Source: Allofustis seminis DSM 15817 (GTDB taxonomy: Bacteria > Bacillota > Bacilli > Lactobacillales > Carnobacteriaceae_A). From it: DNA of 64,000 bases. Both the position numbers and the translations under genes were made by a program. The stretch is from positions 1 to 64,000 of the forward strand of contig NZ_KB894079.1 in assembly GCF_000374325.1 (NCBI RefSeq), written 5' to 3'. Positions 5,745-58,954 of this stretch are shown here, piece after piece (the first letter of the stretch is position 1; each line of letters starts with the position of its first letter). The notes under the pieces are model-generated. The model searched no databases and was not told the origin of the DNA. It saw only the letters and a list, made by a program, of their open reading frames with translations.

Positions 5745-7028
5745 ATGATAGATGCAATATTAGGACAAGTACGCAACACGGCGTTAATTGTAGGATTAAT
5801 TTCTTTTATCGGATTAGTTTTACAAGGAAAGAAATCTGACGAAGTGATCAGTGGTACGGTAAAAACAATTGCTGGATTTATGATATTTAACATTGGATCA
5901 AGTGCGATGTCATCTGTAGTTTCAAATTTTTCGGCATTATTTAATGCTGGTTTTGGAATTTCGGGTGTAACGACTCAAGTAGAAGTAGCGACCGCGTTAG
6001 CGCTAAATAAATTCGGAACTGAAGTTGCCCTACTTTTTGTTTTGGGGTTTGTCTTTAATTTAACTTTTGCTAAATTTACTAGATTTAAAGCTATTTTTCT
6101 GACTGGTCAACATTTTTTATATTTCGCATGTGTTTTGGCTCTTGTATTTATTTCTCATGGATTTCCAACTTGGGCAACTATTTTATTTGGCGGTATTATG
6201 TTAGGTTTTTGTGGAGCGGCTCTTCCAACTTTAGCACAGCCTTTTATGAATAAAATAACTGGATCAAATGATATTGCGATGGGTCATTTTAATTTAATCG
6301 GCTATACATTATCTGGTTATATTGGAAAACTTGTTGGGAAAGCGACTAATGATTCACATGATCAAGAAAAAGATATTAATTTGCCTGGCTTCTTAAAATT
6401 ATTTAGAGATTTTGTTTTTTCAGTTGCTGTCTTTATGGTGGTTTTATTCTATATTGCAGTAATCGCAGCTATGGTAAATGGACAAAGTGATCTGGTTGCC
6501 GAGATGTCTGGAAATGATATTTGGTTTATATGGCCACTTCTTCAAGGGCTACAATTTGCAGCAGGTATGTCAGTTTTAATTTATGGAGTAAGACAATTTA
6601 TTGCTGAAATTACAATGGCATTTGTTGCAATATCCGAAAAATATATTCCAGATTCAAAACCAGCAGTTGACTGTCCAGCGATCTTCCCATATGCACCACA
6701 TGCTGTTTTAATTGGTTTTGTAGGATCGCTATTGGGAGGATTTTTAGGAATGGCATTAATGGTGATGTTTAAGTCACCTGTTATATTAATTCCTGCTGCT
6801 GGTATTTGTTTCTTCTCTGGTGGAACGGCAGGAGTTTTTGGTCATGCTTATGGTGGATGGAAAGGTGCAGCTTTAGGTAGCTTTATTATAGGAATATTTT
6901 TAGTTGTACTTCCTTTAGCGCTATATCCGGCGTTCGCCCATTTAGGAATTGCAGAAGCTTCATTCCCTAATATTGACTATAACGTCATTGGTTCTTTACT
7001 CGATAAAATTTTGCAGTTATTCCAGTAA
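5745..7028 (+). CDS. PTS membrane transporter IIC component, ascorbate (SgaT/UlaA) family
   Basis: Polytopic membrane protein of 427 residues, with roughly ten hydrophobic segments, that forms the sugar channel of this PTS. The N-terminus (NTALIVGLISFIGLVLQGKK), the stretch GQHFLYFACVLALVF and the glycine-rich FFSGGTAGVFGHAYGGWKGA resemble the SgaT/UlaA permeases for L-ascorbate. That family also contains transporters of other or unknown substrates, and none of the classical ascorbate genes (UlaG lactonase, UlaD, UlaE, UlaF) is in this window, so ascorbate should not be assumed. It has ribosome site AGGGGG and is followed by a perfect palindrome before the regulator gene. Confidence 0.88.
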   Translation: MIDAILGQVRNTALIVGLISFIGLVLQGKKSDEVISGTVKTIAGFMIFNIGSSAMSSVVSNFSALFNAGFGISGVTTQVEVATALALNKFGTEVALLFVLGFVFNLTFAKFTRFKAIFLTGQHFLYFACVLALVFISHGFPTWATILFGGIMLGFCGAALPTLAQPFMNKITGSNDIAMGHFNLIGYTLSGYIGKLVGKATNDSHDQEKDINLPGFLKLFRDFVFSVAVFMVVLFYIAVIAAMVNGQSDLVAEMSGNDIWFIWPLLQGLQFAAGMSVLIYGVRQFIAEITMAFVAISEKYIPDSKPAVDCPAIFPYAPHAVLIGFVGSLLGGFLGMALMVMFKSPVILIPAAGICFFSGGTAGVFGHAYGGWKGAALGSFIIGIFLVVLPLALYPAFAHLGIAEASFPNIDYNVIGSLLDKILQLFQ

Positions 7029-7037
7029 AGAGTTGTT

Positions 7038-7061
7038 AGAGAGAATCCTAGGATTCTCTCT
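7038..7061 (+). repeat. Perfect 24-nt palindrome between IIC and the regulator gene
   Basis: The sequence runs AGAGAGAATCCT then AGGATTCTCTCT, an uninterrupted inverted repeat. It is followed by GATATTTTA rather than a T run, so it is not a strong terminator. It could act as an mRNA processing or stabilising hairpin that sets IIC and regulator levels apart, or as a dyad operator. Confidence 0.7.
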
Positions 7062-7090
7062 GATATTTTATAGAAGGAGGGTAAGTTGTA

Positions 7091-9166
7091 GTGGATAAAG
7101 AAGTACTCGAATTAATTCGAATTCTTTCTGTCCAACATATTTTACAAGTTAAAGATGTAGAAAGAATGACCCAAGCTTCTCGTCGTCAAATCGATTATAG
7201 AATTGAAAAAATAAATCAGCTGCTTATTGACTATCACTTACCACCAATTTATATTCAAAATCAAATGATCATTGCTGATCCTGTAGTGAAAGAATTTTTA
7301 TTGGAATATACGTTTAGTGATTTAAATCAATCTGAATATTATTTAAATCGTATAGAGCGACAACAGTATATTTTTATTTGGATGTATATAAATAGTGAAT
7401 ATTTATCTGTTCAGCATATTACGCAACAACTATCAGTTAGTAAAACAACTTTGATGAATGATATGAATGATCTCTCTGAATTATTAAAAAAAGAAGGGGT
7501 AGACATTCATTATAATCGTTCCTTAGGATACTATCTAAAAGGTTCTGAACATAAAAAACAAAAAATGATGGTTAAAATGGTTGCTAATATGGTAACTCAT
7601 GATAACACTTCTCAAGTATTGCCAATGATTTTAAATGACTTTGATTTTATGAATTTCAATCTCGTAAAGAAAGTGTTTAATAATTTAGCCAAAAAACAAA
7701 ATATTAATTTTGTTGAAACACGCTTAAAAGAATTTATATATATTTTTTTATTTGAATCTAAACGATTATCCAGTTCCACTCATAAATTAATTCAAAAACA
7801 ATCTGAACATATCAATTTAACTCATGATTTAAAAGAATATTATTTTATTAAGCAATTGATCTCTTATTATCATTTGGAAAATATTTTTGGGGAAGAAGAT
7901 ATTGAATATTTAGTCTATTGGATTTTAGGCGTTTCGATAGGCGATATAAATGAAGAAACAGCGGATCGTGAAATGATTTATGAATTAGTATGCGAAATTG
8001 TTGCTAATTTTGAACGATTAAGCGGTACAGCAATTGTTGATTCCACTAGCCTTATTGAGCATATATACTCTCATTTTAGACCAGCATTTTATAGAATCAC
8101 TAACGATATTCCAATCGATAATCCATTAACTATGAAAATTGTTAATAGATATGAAGGGTTGATTATGATTGTTAGGGAAATATTTAAATCTATACAACCT
8201 TTAAAACAATATCATGTTTCATTAGATGAGTTATCGCTTATGGCATTACATTTTTCGACAGTATTTTTACAAGATAACCAAATTAAGGATTTAAAGAAAA
8301 TTCGTGCATTAATTGTTTGTTTGAATGGAATTGGGAGTTCGGTGATTTTATATAATGAATTAAGAACAATGTTTAGCGAATTTGAGTTTTATCCACCAAT
8401 TTCAGCATATGACTTATCACAAATAAGTGGTGATTTTGATATTATTTTTACGACTAATATTGTTGAAGAAATGATTGATAGCGATAAGCCTGTTGTTAAA
8501 GTTTCTCCAGTAATGAGTGTATCTGAAAAGCGGTTTTTATATCGACAAGTTTATTCCGCATTAATTAATCATGAAATTTATAAAAAAGAAGACAATGTAC
8601 AATCCATTCTTAAAAAGAATCATATAGATGATGCTTTGACAGATAAATTAACTTATGAATTGACACAATATTTTACTCATAAAATTGAAGGTAAACTTGT
8701 ATTTGACTTTCCTGGCCAATTAAAACTAGAAGAGATGGTATATCCACATTATATTTTGCTTAAACTTGAAGCTAGTCATGATGAGGATGCAATTAAAAAA
8801 ATTGGTCAGGTTCTTTTAGATGATTGTGTAATTGATAGAGAATATATTGAAGCAATGATAAAACGCCAGAGATCGCATCCTAATTATTTTGTTATTGCAC
8901 TAGGCGTTGCTTTCCCTCATGCACAGCCTTTTCATGGAGTACATAAAGATGCTTTAGTAATTTGTACATTAGCTAAGCCCGTTACTTTTGGAGAAGAAAA
9001 AGTAAGCAAAATTTTTATGCTGGCAGCTACTAACAATAATTCTCATCTAAATGCTATGGGGGAATTGCTTGATTTAATTAATAATGAAGAATTTATGAGC
9101 ACGCTTGATGACACTGAAGATATTAGCGATATTTATCGTTTCATCATAAACAAGGAGGGTCATTGA
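7091..9166 (+). CDS. PRD-containing PTS transcription regulator, MtlR/LicR type
   Basis: A 691-residue regulator whose activity is set by PTS phosphorylation. Order of parts: N-terminal helix-turn-helix regions (about 1-170; RRQIDYRIEKIN and SVSKTTLMNDMNDLSELL), PRD1 (about 200-290), PRD2 (about 310-400, with the His-rich start IEHIYSHFRPAFYRI and ALHFSTVFL), a IIB-like domain with Cys410 in VCLNGIGSS, and a C-terminal IIA-2 domain with His610 in VAFPHAQP. There is no AAA+ domain, so it is not a sigma-54 activator, and no RNA-binding antiterminator domain at the start, so direct DNA binding is expected. GTG start at 7091 with AAGGAGGG upstream. It lies inside the operon it probably controls. 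By eye it is very AT-rich; the 60-nt line at 7681 has only 11 G or C. Confidence 0.88.
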   Translation: MDKEVLELIRILSVQHILQVKDVERMTQASRRQIDYRIEKINQLLIDYHLPPIYIQNQMIIADPVVKEFLLEYTFSDLNQSEYYLNRIERQQYIFIWMYINSEYLSVQHITQQLSVSKTTLMNDMNDLSELLKKEGVDIHYNRSLGYYLKGSEHKKQKMMVKMVANMVTHDNTSQVLPMILNDFDFMNFNLVKKVFNNLAKKQNINFVETRLKEFIYIFLFESKRLSSSTHKLIQKQSEHINLTHDLKEYYFIKQLISYYHLENIFGEEDIEYLVYWILGVSIGDINEETADREMIYELVCEIVANFERLSGTAIVDSTSLIEHIYSHFRPAFYRITNDIPIDNPLTMKIVNRYEGLIMIVREIFKSIQPLKQYHVSLDELSLMALHFSTVFLQDNQIKDLKKIRALIVCLNGIGSSVILYNELRTMFSEFEFYPPISAYDLSQISGDFDIIFTTNIVEEMIDSDKPVVKVSPVMSVSEKRFLYRQVYSALINHEIYKKEDNVQSILKKNHIDDALTDKLTYELTQYFTHKIEGKLVFDFPGQLKLEEMVYPHYILLKLEASHDEDAIKKIGQVLLDDCVIDREYIEAMIKRQRSHPNYFVIALGVAFPHAQPFHGVHKDALVICTLAKPVTFGEEKVSKIFMLAATNNNSHLNAMGELLDLINNEEFMSTLDDTEDISDIYRFIINKEGH

Positions 9167-10050
9167 TGTTTTCAGGAATTATTACACCTATATTGAGCTC
9201 ATTTCATCGTGATACAGAGAGAACCTTAAATTTAGATGCAATGGAGCCACTGATAGATTATTTGTTAGACAATGGTGTGCGTACGCTTTTTGCGCTCGGC
9301 AGCAATGGCGAATTTTTTACAATGAACGATCATGAAAAATTACAATTCGTAAAACATATATTAAATTATGTTGATGGAAGAGTTCCAATTATTGTAGGGA
9401 CTTCTTCTTGTCAGCGTAATGAGGTCTTAAAATTATCTAAAAAGGTTCAAGCATTAGGGGCCGCTGCTGTATCTATACTGCCACCATATTTTATAAGACC
9501 GACGGACGATGAGATTATTAGTTATTATATTGATATTGCTGATCAACTTGAAATACCGATCATTATGTATAATATTCCAAAGAATGTAGGTTATTCAATT
9601 AGTAATGAAGTCTTAGATGAATGCTTGAAACACAACAATATAATAGGTATTAAAGATAGTAGTGGCAATAGAGATGTTATTGTAGATTTCACAAAAATTT
9701 GTCATGAAAATCAAAAGTCATACTGGTGCGGAAGTGATGGAAACATATCTTTTTCGTATCAACATGGAGCCGTCGGAGCAATTTCAGGATTAAGCAATGT
9801 TATTCCTCAAACGATTGTTAGCTTATGGGATGCACTGGAAAAAGAAGATTTTGGCAGAGCAGAAGGATTACAGCAGATGATAGAAGAAATAAGAACAGTT
9901 AATCATTTGAATACTGTGCCATCTATTTTAAAAAGAGCGATTGAATTAGCAAATATCTCTAAATTAGGACCTGCTCGCCATCCTGTGGAAGACATCGCAG
10001 GAAAATATGATGATCGTATCATTAAAATGCTGAGATATTATAATTTATAG
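9166..10050 (+). CDS. DapA-family (class I) 2-keto acid aldolase/lyase
   Basis: Member of the dihydrodipicolinate synthase / N-acetylneuraminate lyase / KDG aldolase family, which makes or breaks a carbon-carbon bond next to pyruvate. The Schiff-base Lys163 (GIKDSSGN), Tyr135 (IMYNIPKN) and the loop LGSNGEFFTM (the GxxGE site that binds the pyruvyl carboxylate) are present, so it should be active. The context is sugar catabolism, not lysine synthesis, which favours a 2-keto-3-deoxy-sugar-acid or sialate-like substrate over dihydrodipicolinate. The ATG at 9166 is preferred: AAGGAGGG lies 6 nt before it and it overlaps the regulator's TGA by one base; an in-frame TTG one codon upstream is less likely. 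294 residues, normal for the family. Confidence 0.88.
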   Translation: MFSGIITPILSSFHRDTERTLNLDAMEPLIDYLLDNGVRTLFALGSNGEFFTMNDHEKLQFVKHILNYVDGRVPIIVGTSSCQRNEVLKLSKKVQALGAAAVSILPPYFIRPTDDEIISYYIDIADQLEIPIIMYNIPKNVGYSISNEVLDECLKHNNIIGIKDSSGNRDVIVDFTKICHENQKSYWCGSDGNISFSYQHGAVGAISGLSNVIPQTIVSLWDALEKEDFGRAEGLQQMIEEIRTVNHLNTVPSILKRAIELANISKLGPARHPVEDIAGKYDDRIIKMLRYYNL

Positions 10051-10063
10051 AAAGGGAAAAGAT

Positions 10064-10696
10064 ATGAAAAAGCATGAAATTTTTGACAAAATGCTATCGT
10101 ATAAAGCACTTGCTATTTTAAGAGTAGATTCTATAAAGAGAGCAGATGAGGTGGCTGATGCCTTAATACGTGCTGAATTACCCGTTTTGGAGATTAGTTA
10201 TACCAATTTGGATGCAGGTCAAAGTATTAATTATTTAAAATCAAAATATAAAAATAATATTATTTGCGGAGCAGGCACTGTATTAGATGAGCAAGCAGCT
10301 TTCGATGCGACTAAAAATGGAGCAGATTTTATTATAGCTCCAAATTATAATGAAAAAGTAGCTTTAGTTTGCAATCGGTATCAAATTCCTTATGGGCCTG
10401 GTTGTACGTCACTTTCAGAAGCTGTTGAAGCTTTAACATATGGTGCCTCTTTTATAAAAGCATTTCCAATCTCTAATTTTTATGGCGCGAAGCTAGTGCC
10501 GGTTTTTAAAACACCCTTTCCTAAGTTGTTGCTGATGGCTAGTGGTGGGATTAATTTAGATAATTTAGAACATTGGCTATCGGCTGGGGTGGATCTTGTT
10601 GCTTTCGGGAGTTTATTGTCTGAAGGATCGGGCGAAGATATTTACCAACATGCTAAAATGATTAAATCAATTATCCATAAAAACACAGAAGGATGA
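10064..10696 (+). CDS. KDPG/KHG aldolase family protein with altered substrate-binding loop
   Basis: A 210-residue class I aldolase of the Eda family, which cleaves 2-keto-3-deoxy-6-phosphosugar acids to pyruvate and a phosphorylated aldehyde. Schiff-base Lys132 (SFIKAFPIS) and catalytic Glu43 (PVLEISYTN) are present, as are GAGTVLDEQAA and the phosphate-site MASGGI. In classical KDPG aldolase the segment after the Glu reads like EVTLRT, with an Arg; here it is EISYTN, without it. The substrate may therefore differ in stereochemistry or in the group at the carboxyl end. It is 13 nt after the DapA-family gene and overlaps the next frame, so the two aldolases are co-expressed. Confidence 0.88.
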   Translation: MKKHEIFDKMLSYKALAILRVDSIKRADEVADALIRAELPVLEISYTNLDAGQSINYLKSKYKNNIICGAGTVLDEQAAFDATKNGADFIIAPNYNEKVALVCNRYQIPYGPGCTSLSEAVEALTYGASFIKAFPISNFYGAKLVPVFKTPFPKLLLMASGGINLDNLEHWLSAGVDLVAFGSLLSEGSGEDIYQHAKMIKSIIHKNTEG

Positions 10697-10701
10697 TCGA
10701 G

Positions 10702-11301
10702 ATGAGTTACAACGAGGAAATAAGAAAAGTTATTAGTATAGAAATCAATGGTTTACAAAATTTAGAAAAAAATATTAATGGTACTTATGGACAATTAGTC
10801 GAAATGATCTTAAATATGAAAGGGAAACTTATCATTACTGGCGTGGGAAAGTCGGGTTTAATTGCTAAGAAAATTTCGGCAACTTTTTCTTCTATTGGTA
10901 CGCCATGTTTTTATATGCATAGCACTGAAGGACTTCATGGGGATCTGGGAATGATCGAAAAAGGGGATATAGTTATCGCAATTTCAAATAGTGGGGAAAC
11001 ATCTGAAGTGTTAGCTTTAATGCCATCTATTCAAAAAATTGGAGCTTGTTTAGTGAGTATGACATCTAATTCACAATCAACACTCGCGAAGTTATCAGAA
11101 CTTGCATTAGTATATCAATATGATCAAGAGGCCGATCATTTGAATTTAGCACCTACAACAAGCGCAATCATTTGCTTAGCTATTGGAGATGCTGTGGCAT
11201 GTACTGTTAGTAAATGTCGCAACTTTACTGCTGAGGAATTTCATACATTTCATCCAGGGGGTAGTTTAGGCAACTTATTAGAACAAAATCTTTTAAAATA
11301 A
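10702..11301 (+). CDS. SIS-domain sugar-phosphate isomerase, KpsF/GutQ-like, without CBS domains
   Basis: A 199-residue protein made only of the SIS fold. It has the family motifs TGVGKSGLIAKKISATFSS, HGDLGMI, ISNSGETSEV, LAPTTSAIICLAIGDA and FHPGGSLGNLL. KpsF/GutQ/KdsD enzymes interconvert ribulose 5-phosphate and arabinose 5-phosphate and carry two CBS domains after the SIS domain; these are absent here. CBS-less forms act on various sugar phosphates. In this operon it is likely to isomerise the phosphorylated sugar delivered by the PTS or a later intermediate. The ATG at 10702 has GAAGG 9-10 nt upstream; another ATG at 10693 overlaps the aldolase stop but leaves no room for a ribosome site. 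Last gene of the island. Confidence 0.85.
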   Translation: MSYNEEIRKVISIEINGLQNLEKNINGTYGQLVEMILNMKGKLIITGVGKSGLIAKKISATFSSIGTPCFYMHSTEGLHGDLGMIEKGDIVIAISNSGETSEVLALMPSIQKIGACLVSMTSNSQSTLAKLSELALVYQYDQEADHLNLAPTTSAIICLAIGDAVACTVSKCRNFTAEEFHTFHPGGSLGNLLEQNLLK

Positions 11302-11390
11302 TTACTTATATCTGATAAAGTGTAAGAAAATTTCAATTTTATTAAATCTTTTGAATGATGAATTTAGTTATTAATGTTTAATGATTTGTG

Positions 11391-11435
11391 AAAATAAAAA
11401 AGGTTTCTCATCATGAGAAACCTTTTTTTATTTTG
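11391..11435. terminator. Bidirectional terminator between the island and uspA; right copy of the duplicated element
   Basis: Stem AAAAAAGGTTTCTCAT / ATGAGAAACCTTTTTTT, serving the SIS gene on the plus strand and uspA on the minus strand. It repeats 4632-4676 in direct orientation with two mismatches over 45 nt. Confidence 0.92.
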
Positions 11436-11946
11436 TGTCTTTTCCTTCTTCTGCTGAGTGTTTAAGATTTGATGATGATTTACGTACGATTAGTACATCG
11501 CAAATGGCATGTCGGATGACGCTTTCAGAGACAGAGCCGATAAATAATCGCTCGACTGCACTCAATCCAGTAGCTCCCATAATAATTAAATCAATGCCAT
11601 ATTCTTTTGGTAATTTTTTTGCGATAACTTTTTCAGGGTTACCATATTCTATTAAGATTTGGCAATCATAGATTCCATATTTCTCGGCCAACTTTTTATA
11701 TTCATTTAAAGTAATTTTTACGGCTTGCAGTGGATCTTCTTGTGCGCTTTTTGGCATCGAAATTTGATTGTCGTAGTGGGCATAGGAAGGGTCCGTATGT
11801 GTAAAGGAACGCTCATCAATGACGTGAGCAATAAAAAGTGTTCCGCGATTTTGAACGGTTAACAGGGCCGCTTTTTGAAAAGCAACACGCGAAGCCTTTG
11901 ATCCATCTACGGCGACTAGTATATTTTTATATTCTTCTCGTAACAT
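11428..11946 (-). CDS. Universal stress protein, UspA family
   Basis: A 172-residue cytosolic UspA-fold protein. The N-terminus ILVAVDGSKASRVAFQKA and the ATP-binding signature GATGLSAVERLFIGSVSESV (G-x2-G-x9-G-S) are intact, so it should belong to the ATP-binding branch. The physiological role of such proteins is usually stress survival; none can be named here. Ribosome site AAGGAG lies before the ATG at 11946. There is only about 40 nt between this gene and the terminator of the 6S RNA gene, and no separate promoter is evident, so it may depend on read-through from the 6S/rarA side. Confidence 0.9.
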   Translation of the reverse strand: MLREEYKNILVAVDGSKASRVAFQKAALLTVQNRGTLFIAHVIDERSFTHTDPSYAHYDNQISMPKSAQEDPLQAVKITLNEYKKLAEKYGIYDCQILIEYGNPEKVIAKKLPKEYGIDLIIMGATGLSAVERLFIGSVSESVIRHAICDVLIVRKSSSNLKHSAEEGKDTK

Positions 11947-11984
11947 TTGTATTCTCCTTAATAAACATGACCGGCATCACTTGC

Positions 11985-12021
11985 ACAAAATAAGACCACT
12001 TTACAAACAGCAAAGTGGTCC
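11985..12021 (-). terminator. Terminator of the 6S RNA gene
   Basis: Stem GACCACTTT (11994-12002) / AAAGTGGTC (12012-12020), reading on the minus strand into TTATTTT. It follows the 6S RNA 3' end by about 10 nt. Confidence 0.8.
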
Positions 12022-12027
12022 AAAGTA

Positions 12028-12217
12028 TGTAAAATCCGAGATGCCGTTTGTTTGCATGGTAAGGTTGAACCCGCTATAAGCAGGTGGGCTTCACTGCACT
12101 ATTTTTTGACTTCCAAATGAAAAGGCTTGTCAGCCAATAGCACTTTAGAATCCCGTTATTAAATTATTCGATCGGTCAACGCAGTAATATGCATCGCGTA
12201 CACCTCAGATATTTTCT
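12028..12217 (-). ncRNA. ssrS: 6S RNA
   Basis: Regulatory RNA that imitates an open promoter and binds the sigma-A RNA polymerase holoenzyme, mainly in stationary phase. On the minus strand the 5' part reads ATATCTGAGGTGTACGC and the 3' part ACGGCATCTCGGATTTT. These are the two pairing ends of the closing stem and match the conserved CTGAG-TGT and GGCATCTCGGA ends of known 6S RNAs. A long, mostly paired body with a central bulge fits between them. Length about 190 nt, as expected. A consensus promoter (12224-12252) starts it and a hairpin terminates it. The position directly downstream of rarA is a recurrent 6S RNA location in Firmicutes. Ends are estimated to within a few bases. Confidence 0.88.
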
Positions 12218-12223
12218 AATAAA

Positions 12224-12252
12224 ATAATATCAGATATTAAAAGCGGTGTCAA
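12224..12252 (-). promoter_or_regulatory. Sigma-A promoter of the 6S RNA gene
   Basis: On the minus strand TTGACA (12252-12247), 17-nt spacer, TATTAT (12229-12224). Predicted start near 12217. The -35 box lies 4 bp past the rarA stop codon. Confidence 0.85.
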
Positions 12253-12256
12253 AATT

Positions 12257-13531
12257 TTAGAGGGGATCTTGTGGTCGGAATTTGTTTAATTGTTGAGCCA
12301 GCGCTGTTTCAAACTTACTATTTAGCTTTGGTTGATAATATTTTTTCCCGATGAGCGGATCGGGTAAGTATTGTTGTTTGACCCATGCTTTTTCAAAATT
12401 GTGTGGATATTGATAATCGAGACCGCGCTTTAATTTTTTTGCGCCCGCATAATGTGCATCTTTTAAATGGGAAGGAATGTCACCATATCCTCCTTTTTTT
12501 ATATCCGCGATGGCTTGGTCAATGGCACGATAAGCGGTATTTGATTTTTCGGATAAACATAATTCAATAACAGCATTTGCTAGTGGAATTCTTGCTTCTG
12601 GAAATCCTAAGCGTTCAGCGGCTTGGATCGCAGCTGTAGCACGCGCAGCACCTGCGGGATTTGCAAGGCCAATATCTTCATAGGCTGTGACCATTAGACG
12701 TCTGGCAATAATTTTCAAATCGCCTGCAACGATTAATCGTCCTAAATAATGAAGGGCTGCATCAACATCACTTCCGCGAATTGATTTTTGAAGTGCGGAA
12801 ATGGTGTCATAGTGGGCATCGCCTCCCTTATCGTGGGTTAGGCTTTGGCGTTGTAAGCACTCCTCCGCAATGTTTAAGGTGATATGAATGGTACCTTCTT
12901 CATTTTTTTCGGTGGACATGACTGCAAGTTCCAATGCATTTAATGCACTACGAACATCGCCATTTGTCGCGCGTGTAAAATGTAACATGGCTTCTTTATC
13001 TATGTTGATGGAATATTGGCCGAGTCCATTTATTTTATCCTTTAAAGCGCGATTCAGTGCTTTTTCGATGGCTTGGGATGTGAGTGGCATAAGTTCAAAA
13101 ATTTGGCAACGGCTTCTAATAGCAGGATGAATTGAGAGATAAGGATTCTCTGTAGTTGCACCAATTAAAATAATTTGACCGCTTTCTAAATGTGGCAACA
13201 AAAAATCTTGTTTGGGCTGGTCAAGACGATGGATCTCATCTAAAAGCAGAATAACACTGCCGCTCATTTTGGCTTCTTCTGCAACAATTTGTAAATCCTT
13301 TTTAGTGTGAACAGCAGCATTTAAAGAGCGAAAAGCATATTGTGTAGATCCAGCAATTGCACTTGCAATGCTTGTCTTGCCAATTCCTGGAGGGCCATAT
13401 AAAACCATGGATGATAAGCGCTTGGCTTCAACCATTCGCCAAATAATTTTTCCATGACCGATTAAATGTTCTTGACCGACCACATCATCAATGGAAGTCG
13501 GACGCATTCGATAAGCTAATGGCTGATTCAT
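12257..13531 (-). CDS. rarA: Replication-associated recombination AAA+ ATPase RarA
   Basis: MgsA/RarA family ATPase that acts at stalled replication forks (cytosol, with SSB and the replisome). Visible: MNQPLAYRMRP start, GQEHLIG, Walker A GPPGIGKTS, Walker B ILLLDEIHRLD, sensor GATTENP, and the C-terminal tetramerisation region with DIKKGGYGDIPSHLKDAHY and YPHNF. The ATG at 13531 is preceded by AAGGAG; a longer in-frame start upstream adds residues not seen in the family. 424 residues, normal. A -10 TATAAT sits at 13559-13554 on the minus strand. It is divergent from gshF. Confidence 0.95.
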   Translation of the reverse strand: MNQPLAYRMRPTSIDDVVGQEHLIGHGKIIWRMVEAKRLSSMVLYGPPGIGKTSIASAIAGSTQYAFRSLNAAVHTKKDLQIVAEEAKMSGSVILLLDEIHRLDQPKQDFLLPHLESGQIILIGATTENPYLSIHPAIRSRCQIFELMPLTSQAIEKALNRALKDKINGLGQYSINIDKEAMLHFTRATNGDVRSALNALELAVMSTEKNEEGTIHITLNIAEECLQRQSLTHDKGGDAHYDTISALQKSIRGSDVDAALHYLGRLIVAGDLKIIARRLMVTAYEDIGLANPAGAARATAAIQAAERLGFPEARIPLANAVIELCLSEKSNTAYRAIDQAIADIKKGGYGDIPSHLKDAHYAGAKKLKRGLDYQYPHNFEKAWVKQQYLPDPLIGKKYYQPKLNSKFETALAQQLNKFRPQDPL

Positions 13532-13686
13532 AATAACTCCTTCTTTTTTATTTATTATAGCTAAAATCGACATGAAATTCATTGGGAGTGTTTATTAAGG
13601 AAATCGACGAAAGAAACGGAATTTTTAGGGAATTTCTATTCTTATGTTAAAATATGAATGAAAATATAAAAAGTAGGTGTCTAGAC

Positions 13687-58767: not shown

Positions 58768-58783
58768 AAAAATAATGAATGAT

Positions 58784-58893
58784 TCATCTTCAGGGCAGGG
58801 CGTGATTCCCGACCGGTGGTAAAGTCCACGAGCATATAGCTGACTTGGTGAGATTCCAAGACCGACCGTATAGTCTGGATGGAAGAAGATGAG
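58784..58893 (+). promoter_or_regulatory. FMN riboswitch (RFN element)
   Basis: Conserved RFN core: CATCTTCAGGGCAGGGCG, ATTCCCGACCGGTGGT, AAGTCCACGAGC, then GGTGAGATTCCAAGACCGAC, CGTATAGTCTGGATG and closing GAAGAAGATG. Binds FMN and shuts off the riboflavin transporter gene. Downstream, AATCCCC (58913-58919) can pair with GGGGATT (58942-58948), masking the ribosome site GGGGG of ribU, so control is likely translational. Confidence 0.95.
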
Positions 58894-58954
58894 GCTTTTT
58901 TGAGTTTGCCTTAATCCCCAATCCCTGAATTGAATCCAGATGGGGGATTTATAA

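Follow-up and report, generated by a model that had tools for sequence, protein, structure and literature searches.

A canonical 6S RNA gene between rarA and uspA in Allofustis seminis, and a possible route of read-through into uspA

The rarA-6S-uspA locus

6S RNA is a bacterial RNA that holds back RNA polymerase through promoter mimicry. Here, its gene is found between rarA (also called mgsA), which encodes an AAA+ ATPase associated with replication and recombination, and uspA, which encodes a universal stress protein. In the window (the whole stretch of 64,000 nucleotides of Allofustis seminis DSM 15817 that was analysed), the three genes are carried on the same strand, with rarA upstream and uspA downstream of the 6S RNA gene (Table 1). 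No Usp-family gene other than uspA was found in the genome.

The organism groups with the Carnobacteriaceae. The named genomes with the nearest RarA proteins are those of Atopostipes (76% identity), itself a member of the Carnobacteriaceae, Marinilactibacillus and Desemzia.

Table 1. Coordinates of the features of the rarA-6S-uspA locus in the window
Feature	Position	Strand	Basis
rarA (mgsA), upstream neighbour	12257..13582, start codon approximate	-	Pfam MgsA_C 3.2e-63, AAA_assoc_2; 76% identity to Atopostipes suicloacalis RarA
-35 box TTGACA of 6S promoter	12247..12252	-	promoter scan and sequence
Weak cre (CcpA) site candidate, overlapping the -35 box	12238..12251	-	one mismatch to consensus
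-10 box TATTAT of 6S promoter, extended (TGn)	12224..12229	-	promoter scan
6S RNA gene (ssrS)	12029..12217	-	RF00013, 84.5 bits; covariation; start placed at about 12217 from the -10 box
Region where the product RNA (pRNA) is predicted to start, antisense to the 6S template	12170..12184	+	alignment to relatives and published hallmarks of lactic acid bacteria
Hairpin of the intrinsic 6S RNA terminator, tail TATTTTGT	11993..12021	-	terminator scan; -17.6 kcal/mol
uspA, universal stress protein, downstream neighbour	11428..11946	-	Pfam PF00582, 3.3e-31

Identity of the 6S RNA gene

The initial annotation of this DNA had placed a 6S RNA gene in the gap between rarA and uspA, and had named a covariance-model search as one way to check it. 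That search, using Rfam, bears the claim out. The 6S RNA family RF00013 covers 12214-12029 with 84.5 bits (E 3.1e-15), well above its gathering score of 46.4, and positions 1-187 of the 187 in the model are aligned, making this a full-length match. A search of the whole genome (1,441,290 bases, in an assembly that is 99.69% complete) finds it to be the sole copy.

The fold tells the same story. For the RNA running from 12217 to 11993, the predicted fold beats all of 200 shuffles (z -4.24), and the sequence itself offers a closing stem, a 5' central bulge, an apical arm and a side hairpin. Covariation was examined in 24 6S sequences, chosen to span genera from the 54 then known (those of relatives together with own copies). 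Their MAFFT alignment was not fitted to structure, and the 48-pair consensus derived from that same alignment has 95.9% of alignment cells paired, with compensatory changes (both sides changed) at 30 of the 48 pairs. The covariation score is 0.378, compared with 0.138 in shuffles, of which none in 500 scored that high; sliding the partners brings the score to 0.106 at most. A rod with a closing stem, a large central bulge and an apical arm is therefore backed by covariation. It is almost certain that the locus holds the one 6S RNA gene, canonical in type, of a lactic acid bacterium of the Carnobacteriaceae type.

Such a gene is the rule among relatives. All 27 family genomes carry one 6S match each, and at least 53 of 60 genomes in a wider set of relatives have a match, a number that is a lower bound because the 6S RNA of one of the 60 (G023) was missed under the stricter filters and later found at 51.5 bits. 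Six genomes (G034, G041, G042, G047, G054 and G055) gave no 6S match in the stricter-filter search of the 60. Two of these, G041 and G034, also have a RarA match interrupted by internal TAG stops, two in the first (L138) and one in the second (L139).

Gene order is similarly constant: rarA precedes 6S, and in 26 of the 27 family genomes uspA follows it. The locus L036 (genome G001) has a tandem pair of Usp-type matches behind 6S. According to the cited passages of Cataldo et al. (2021; PMC8414754), the 6S RNA of Lactobacillales is single-copy and usually lies between an upstream rarA and a downstream uspA, with a terminator at the end of the gene in most species. The arrangement here is the one already published. 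Because the 6S gene in the window matches that pattern, it is another example of a known arrangement, and as a finding it is ordinary. The likeness to the 6S RNA of lactic acid bacteria described in those passages (RF00013, of the Bacillus subtilis 6S-1 type) extends to the fold, the single copy, the flanking genes, the terminator, and the GG and AA of the pRNA discussed below. The window differs from them in that its rarA-uspA spacer is more compact than that of any other locus compared, that no uspA promoter is recognisable, and that two substitutions lie where the template would start its pRNA.

This compactness is easily put into numbers. The gap between rarA and 6S is 42 nt, the shortest of the 27 family loci, and the spacer between rarA and uspA is 310 nt, the shortest among 95 loci, a set in which several genomes appear twice (L033 and L051, for example). 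Distances from rarA to 6S lie between 42 and 176 nt in 26 family loci, compared with 1,513 nt in Alloiococcus otitis (L039). There, a sequence almost the same as the 6S promoter is present both right after rarA and before 6S; because it occurs twice, an insertion between direct repeats seems to have occurred.

Promoter and terminator of the 6S RNA gene

The 6S promoter consists of TTGACA, a 17-nt spacer and TATTAT, with TGn before the -10 box, and four bases separate TTGACA from the end of the rarA stop codon. It ranks highest among the six promoter-like sites found in 10500-13500, with 11 of 12 matches compared with 9 in each of the others. As a class, promoter-like sites are not enriched in this interval (6 found, 9.8 expected).

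Overlapping the -35 box is a sequence with one mismatch to the consensus for the cre site of CcpA. Matches of this quality are no commoner in the window than chance would provide (45 versus 47.8 expected), and a CcpA site was rejected as an established feature of the locus. The sequence was retained as a weak candidate because its position favours it; in the cited passages of PMC8414754, a cre site lies upstream of, or overlaps, the -35 region of the 6S gene in about a third of species of lactic acid bacteria.

Behind the gene, the scan found a terminator-like hairpin of 12 pairs with the U-rich tail TATTTTGTGC, lying just outside the lower coordinate (12028) that the initial annotation had given. 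Its stability is ordinary for the family, in which 25 other loci range from -13.6 to -25.9 kcal/mol. In one further locus (L020, an uncultured Atopostipes), no good separate hairpin is found behind 6S, the best having only -5.1 kcal/mol; here a T-run directly follows the closing stem of the 6S RNA, and the closing stem might itself act as terminator.

The U-run of the terminator in the window is interrupted by an A. The same interrupted tail, TTATTTTG, is found in L050, a locus whose uspA does have TATAAT upstream. With this and the ordinary stability of the hairpin, a weakened 6S terminator was rejected as a special feature of the window.

The scans thus agree with the initial annotation that a promoter of this structure lies 4 bp past the rarA stop, and that a terminator follows the gene. 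Its further statement that uspA begins about 40 nt past the terminator holds when counting is done from the end of the U-run; measured from the hairpin, the ATG of uspA is 46 nt away.

Judging from what is known of the family, the RNA would mimic an open promoter, would bind the RNA polymerase holoenzyme carrying the housekeeping sigma factor, and would be released as the polymerase transcribes a pRNA from the central bulge. Sequence and family together suggest that the RNA would be made from its own promoter and that most transcripts would stop at 12021-11993. The downstream uspA would then be a separate cistron, or would receive a minor share of its transcripts by read-through.

An unusual predicted pRNA template site

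The predicted pRNA template site lies in the 5' central bulge. When the pRNA is predicted by alignment to relatives to start at 12170 on the plus strand, it has GG at positions 5/6 and AA at positions 9/10, which the cited passages of PMC8414754 give as the hallmarks of the pRNA of lactic acid bacteria.

The template pentamer, however, sets the window apart. In 110 aligned loci, a set that counts some genomes twice, GAACA is found in 91, CTACA in 8, GACTA in 5 and GAACG in 1, while 4 did not match the search pattern; GATCG is found in the window alone. The template here deviates at positions 2 and -1 of the predicted pRNA start from nearly all relatives, and because two positions differ in this way, the start of the pRNA could be somewhat altered.

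The region before uspA in the family and in the window

In most of the family, a -10 box precedes uspA. An exact TATAAT is found within 75 nt before the uspA start in 14 of 26 family loci, compared with a mean of 2.6 and a maximum of 9 in 1,000 trials with shuffled 6S-uspA gaps; a match of at least 5/6 is found in 23 of the 26, compared with a shuffle mean of 15.3 and a maximum of 22. These counts left out loci from outside the family, as well as the 27th family genome (L006/G016), whose contig ended before any uspA. The exact boxes have their ends 32-39 nt upstream of the uspA start codon. Taken one locus at a time, promoter scores are weak, with anywhere from 2 to 198 of 200 shuffles reaching the observed score. 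The signal is clear only as a positional count across loci.

The window lacks this signal. The 75 nt before its uspA hold neither an exact TATAAT nor a 5/6 match, and a promoter scan of the minus strand from 12214 to 11946 found no promoter-like site. In a scored search before uspA, the best site, TTTGCT-N16-TATTTT, did no better than 137 of 200 shuffles. The initial annotation had remarked that uspA has no clear promoter, and these results sustain that remark. Further, the 46 nt from hairpin to ATG, within which the Shine-Dalgarno sequence AAGGAG also sits, compare with 60-150 nt in the 14 loci that have an exact TATAAT. The uspA gene of the window thus seems, by its sequence, to have lost a promoter that most relatives kept.

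A few other family loci show something similar. In Atopostipes suicloacalis (L033) and in L035, not even a 5/6 match to TATAAT is found before uspA, and in L020 and L028, both from Atopostipes, the 5/6 matches present do not resemble the common box. A single loss shared with Atopostipes is nevertheless unsupported, as the tree of RarA proteins puts the window outside a well supported Atopostipes clade, with L041 and L036 as weakly supported neighbours (80/54). Given this placement, a short gap with no recognisable promoter has probably evolved on more than one occasion.

What transcribes uspA?

In E. coli, the cited passages of PMC2848244 and PMC7641849 report that 6S RNA is co-transcribed with ygfA, the gene downstream. 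This system shows that coupling between a 6S RNA and the gene behind it occurs. The E. coli locus resembles the window in having, directly behind 6S and on the same strand, a protein gene that read-through could reach. It differs from the window, where the downstream gene encodes a universal stress protein and an intrinsic terminator stands between; and co-transcription, shown in E. coli, is for the window a proposal with which the sequence is compatible. With the -10 box missing and the rarA-uspA spacer the shortest of 95, expression of uspA in the window may rely on polymerases leaking past the 6S terminator, in a manner comparable to the co-transcription of ygfA with 6S RNA. Here, the sequence favours read-through beyond the published general picture, since the uspA promoter that most of the family has kept cannot be recognised. 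The initial annotation had suggested that read-through from the 6S promoter could drive uspA in stationary phase; the sequence comparisons speak to the read-through part of that suggestion.

In its full form, this proposal holds that uspA lost its promoter and is expressed mainly past the 6S terminator, with the level of UspA following the activity of the 6S promoter. We regard this as possible, and hold it tentatively. The missing box, the short rarA-6S gap and rarA-uspA spacer, the little room between hairpin and ATG, and the A that breaks the U-run all point towards it. The terminator, however, is intact and ordinary for the family, its interrupted tail recurs in L050 in the presence of TATAAT, and the cited passages of PMC8414754 judge 6S genes of lactic acid bacteria to be monocistronic from RNA-seq and terminators. 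Nor need a promoter match a consensus. In another reading, uspA might have a weak or non-consensus promoter of its own that coincides in part with the 6S terminator or with the 3' end of the 6S gene, with read-through being negligible; the chances that this is correct appear evenly balanced. Both the retention of a -10 box in most family members and the intact 6S terminator argue for it, while the poor showing of TTTGCT-N16-TATTTT against shuffles, and the little space that remains between hairpin and Shine-Dalgarno sequence for a promoter and a start site, argue against it. Last, rarA, 6S RNA and uspA might form one longer operon, in which transcription of rarA also continues through 6S. The three genes do share a strand, and nothing resembling a terminator turned up in the stretch from rarA to the 6S promoter. 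This is nonetheless improbable, as 6S has a near-consensus promoter of its own, is treated as monocistronic in the cited passages of PMC8414754, and has a terminator that must be passed.

Should expression through the 6S terminator be the correct view of uspA, a larger evolutionary picture could be drawn. In this small-genome lineage of Carnobacteriaceae, and independently in some Atopostipes, the spacer would have shrunk and the uspA promoter would have been lost. Read-through of the terminator would then have placed the cell's only universal stress protein under the 6S promoter, so that the level of UspA would be tied to a global brake on RNA polymerase. As a whole, this picture is speculative and rather unlikely. 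Literature searches on 6S RNA with uspA and read-through, and on 6S RNA with Atopostipes, found no paper in the collection of literature searched.

The fold predicted for a hypothetical read-through RNA also pairs the uspA leader (GAUGCCG) with the 3' strand of 6S (CGGCAUC). This pairing was set aside as chance; shuffled leaders paired as well in 57 of 300 cases with the last 35 nt of 6S, and in 224 of 300 with the whole of 6S.

Whatever transcribes uspA, a clean 6S RNA annotation is gained for a genus that has a single genome in the collection compared. If the loss of the uspA promoter is real, close relatives with and without that promoter would constitute a natural experiment, in which functional coupling between 6S RNA and uspA might be distinguished from mere adjacency.

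Other features of the window

A sugar-acid type gene cluster (5745-11301, plus strand) is convergent with uspA. It contains a PTS EIIC-GAT, a PRD/EIIA regulator, a DHDPS-family aldolase and a KDPG/KHG aldolase, together with a 202-aa SIS-domain protein that resembles the front part of arabinose-5-phosphate isomerases. Elsewhere, an FMN riboswitch (RF00050, 112.9 bits) is found at 58782-58894 on the plus strand.
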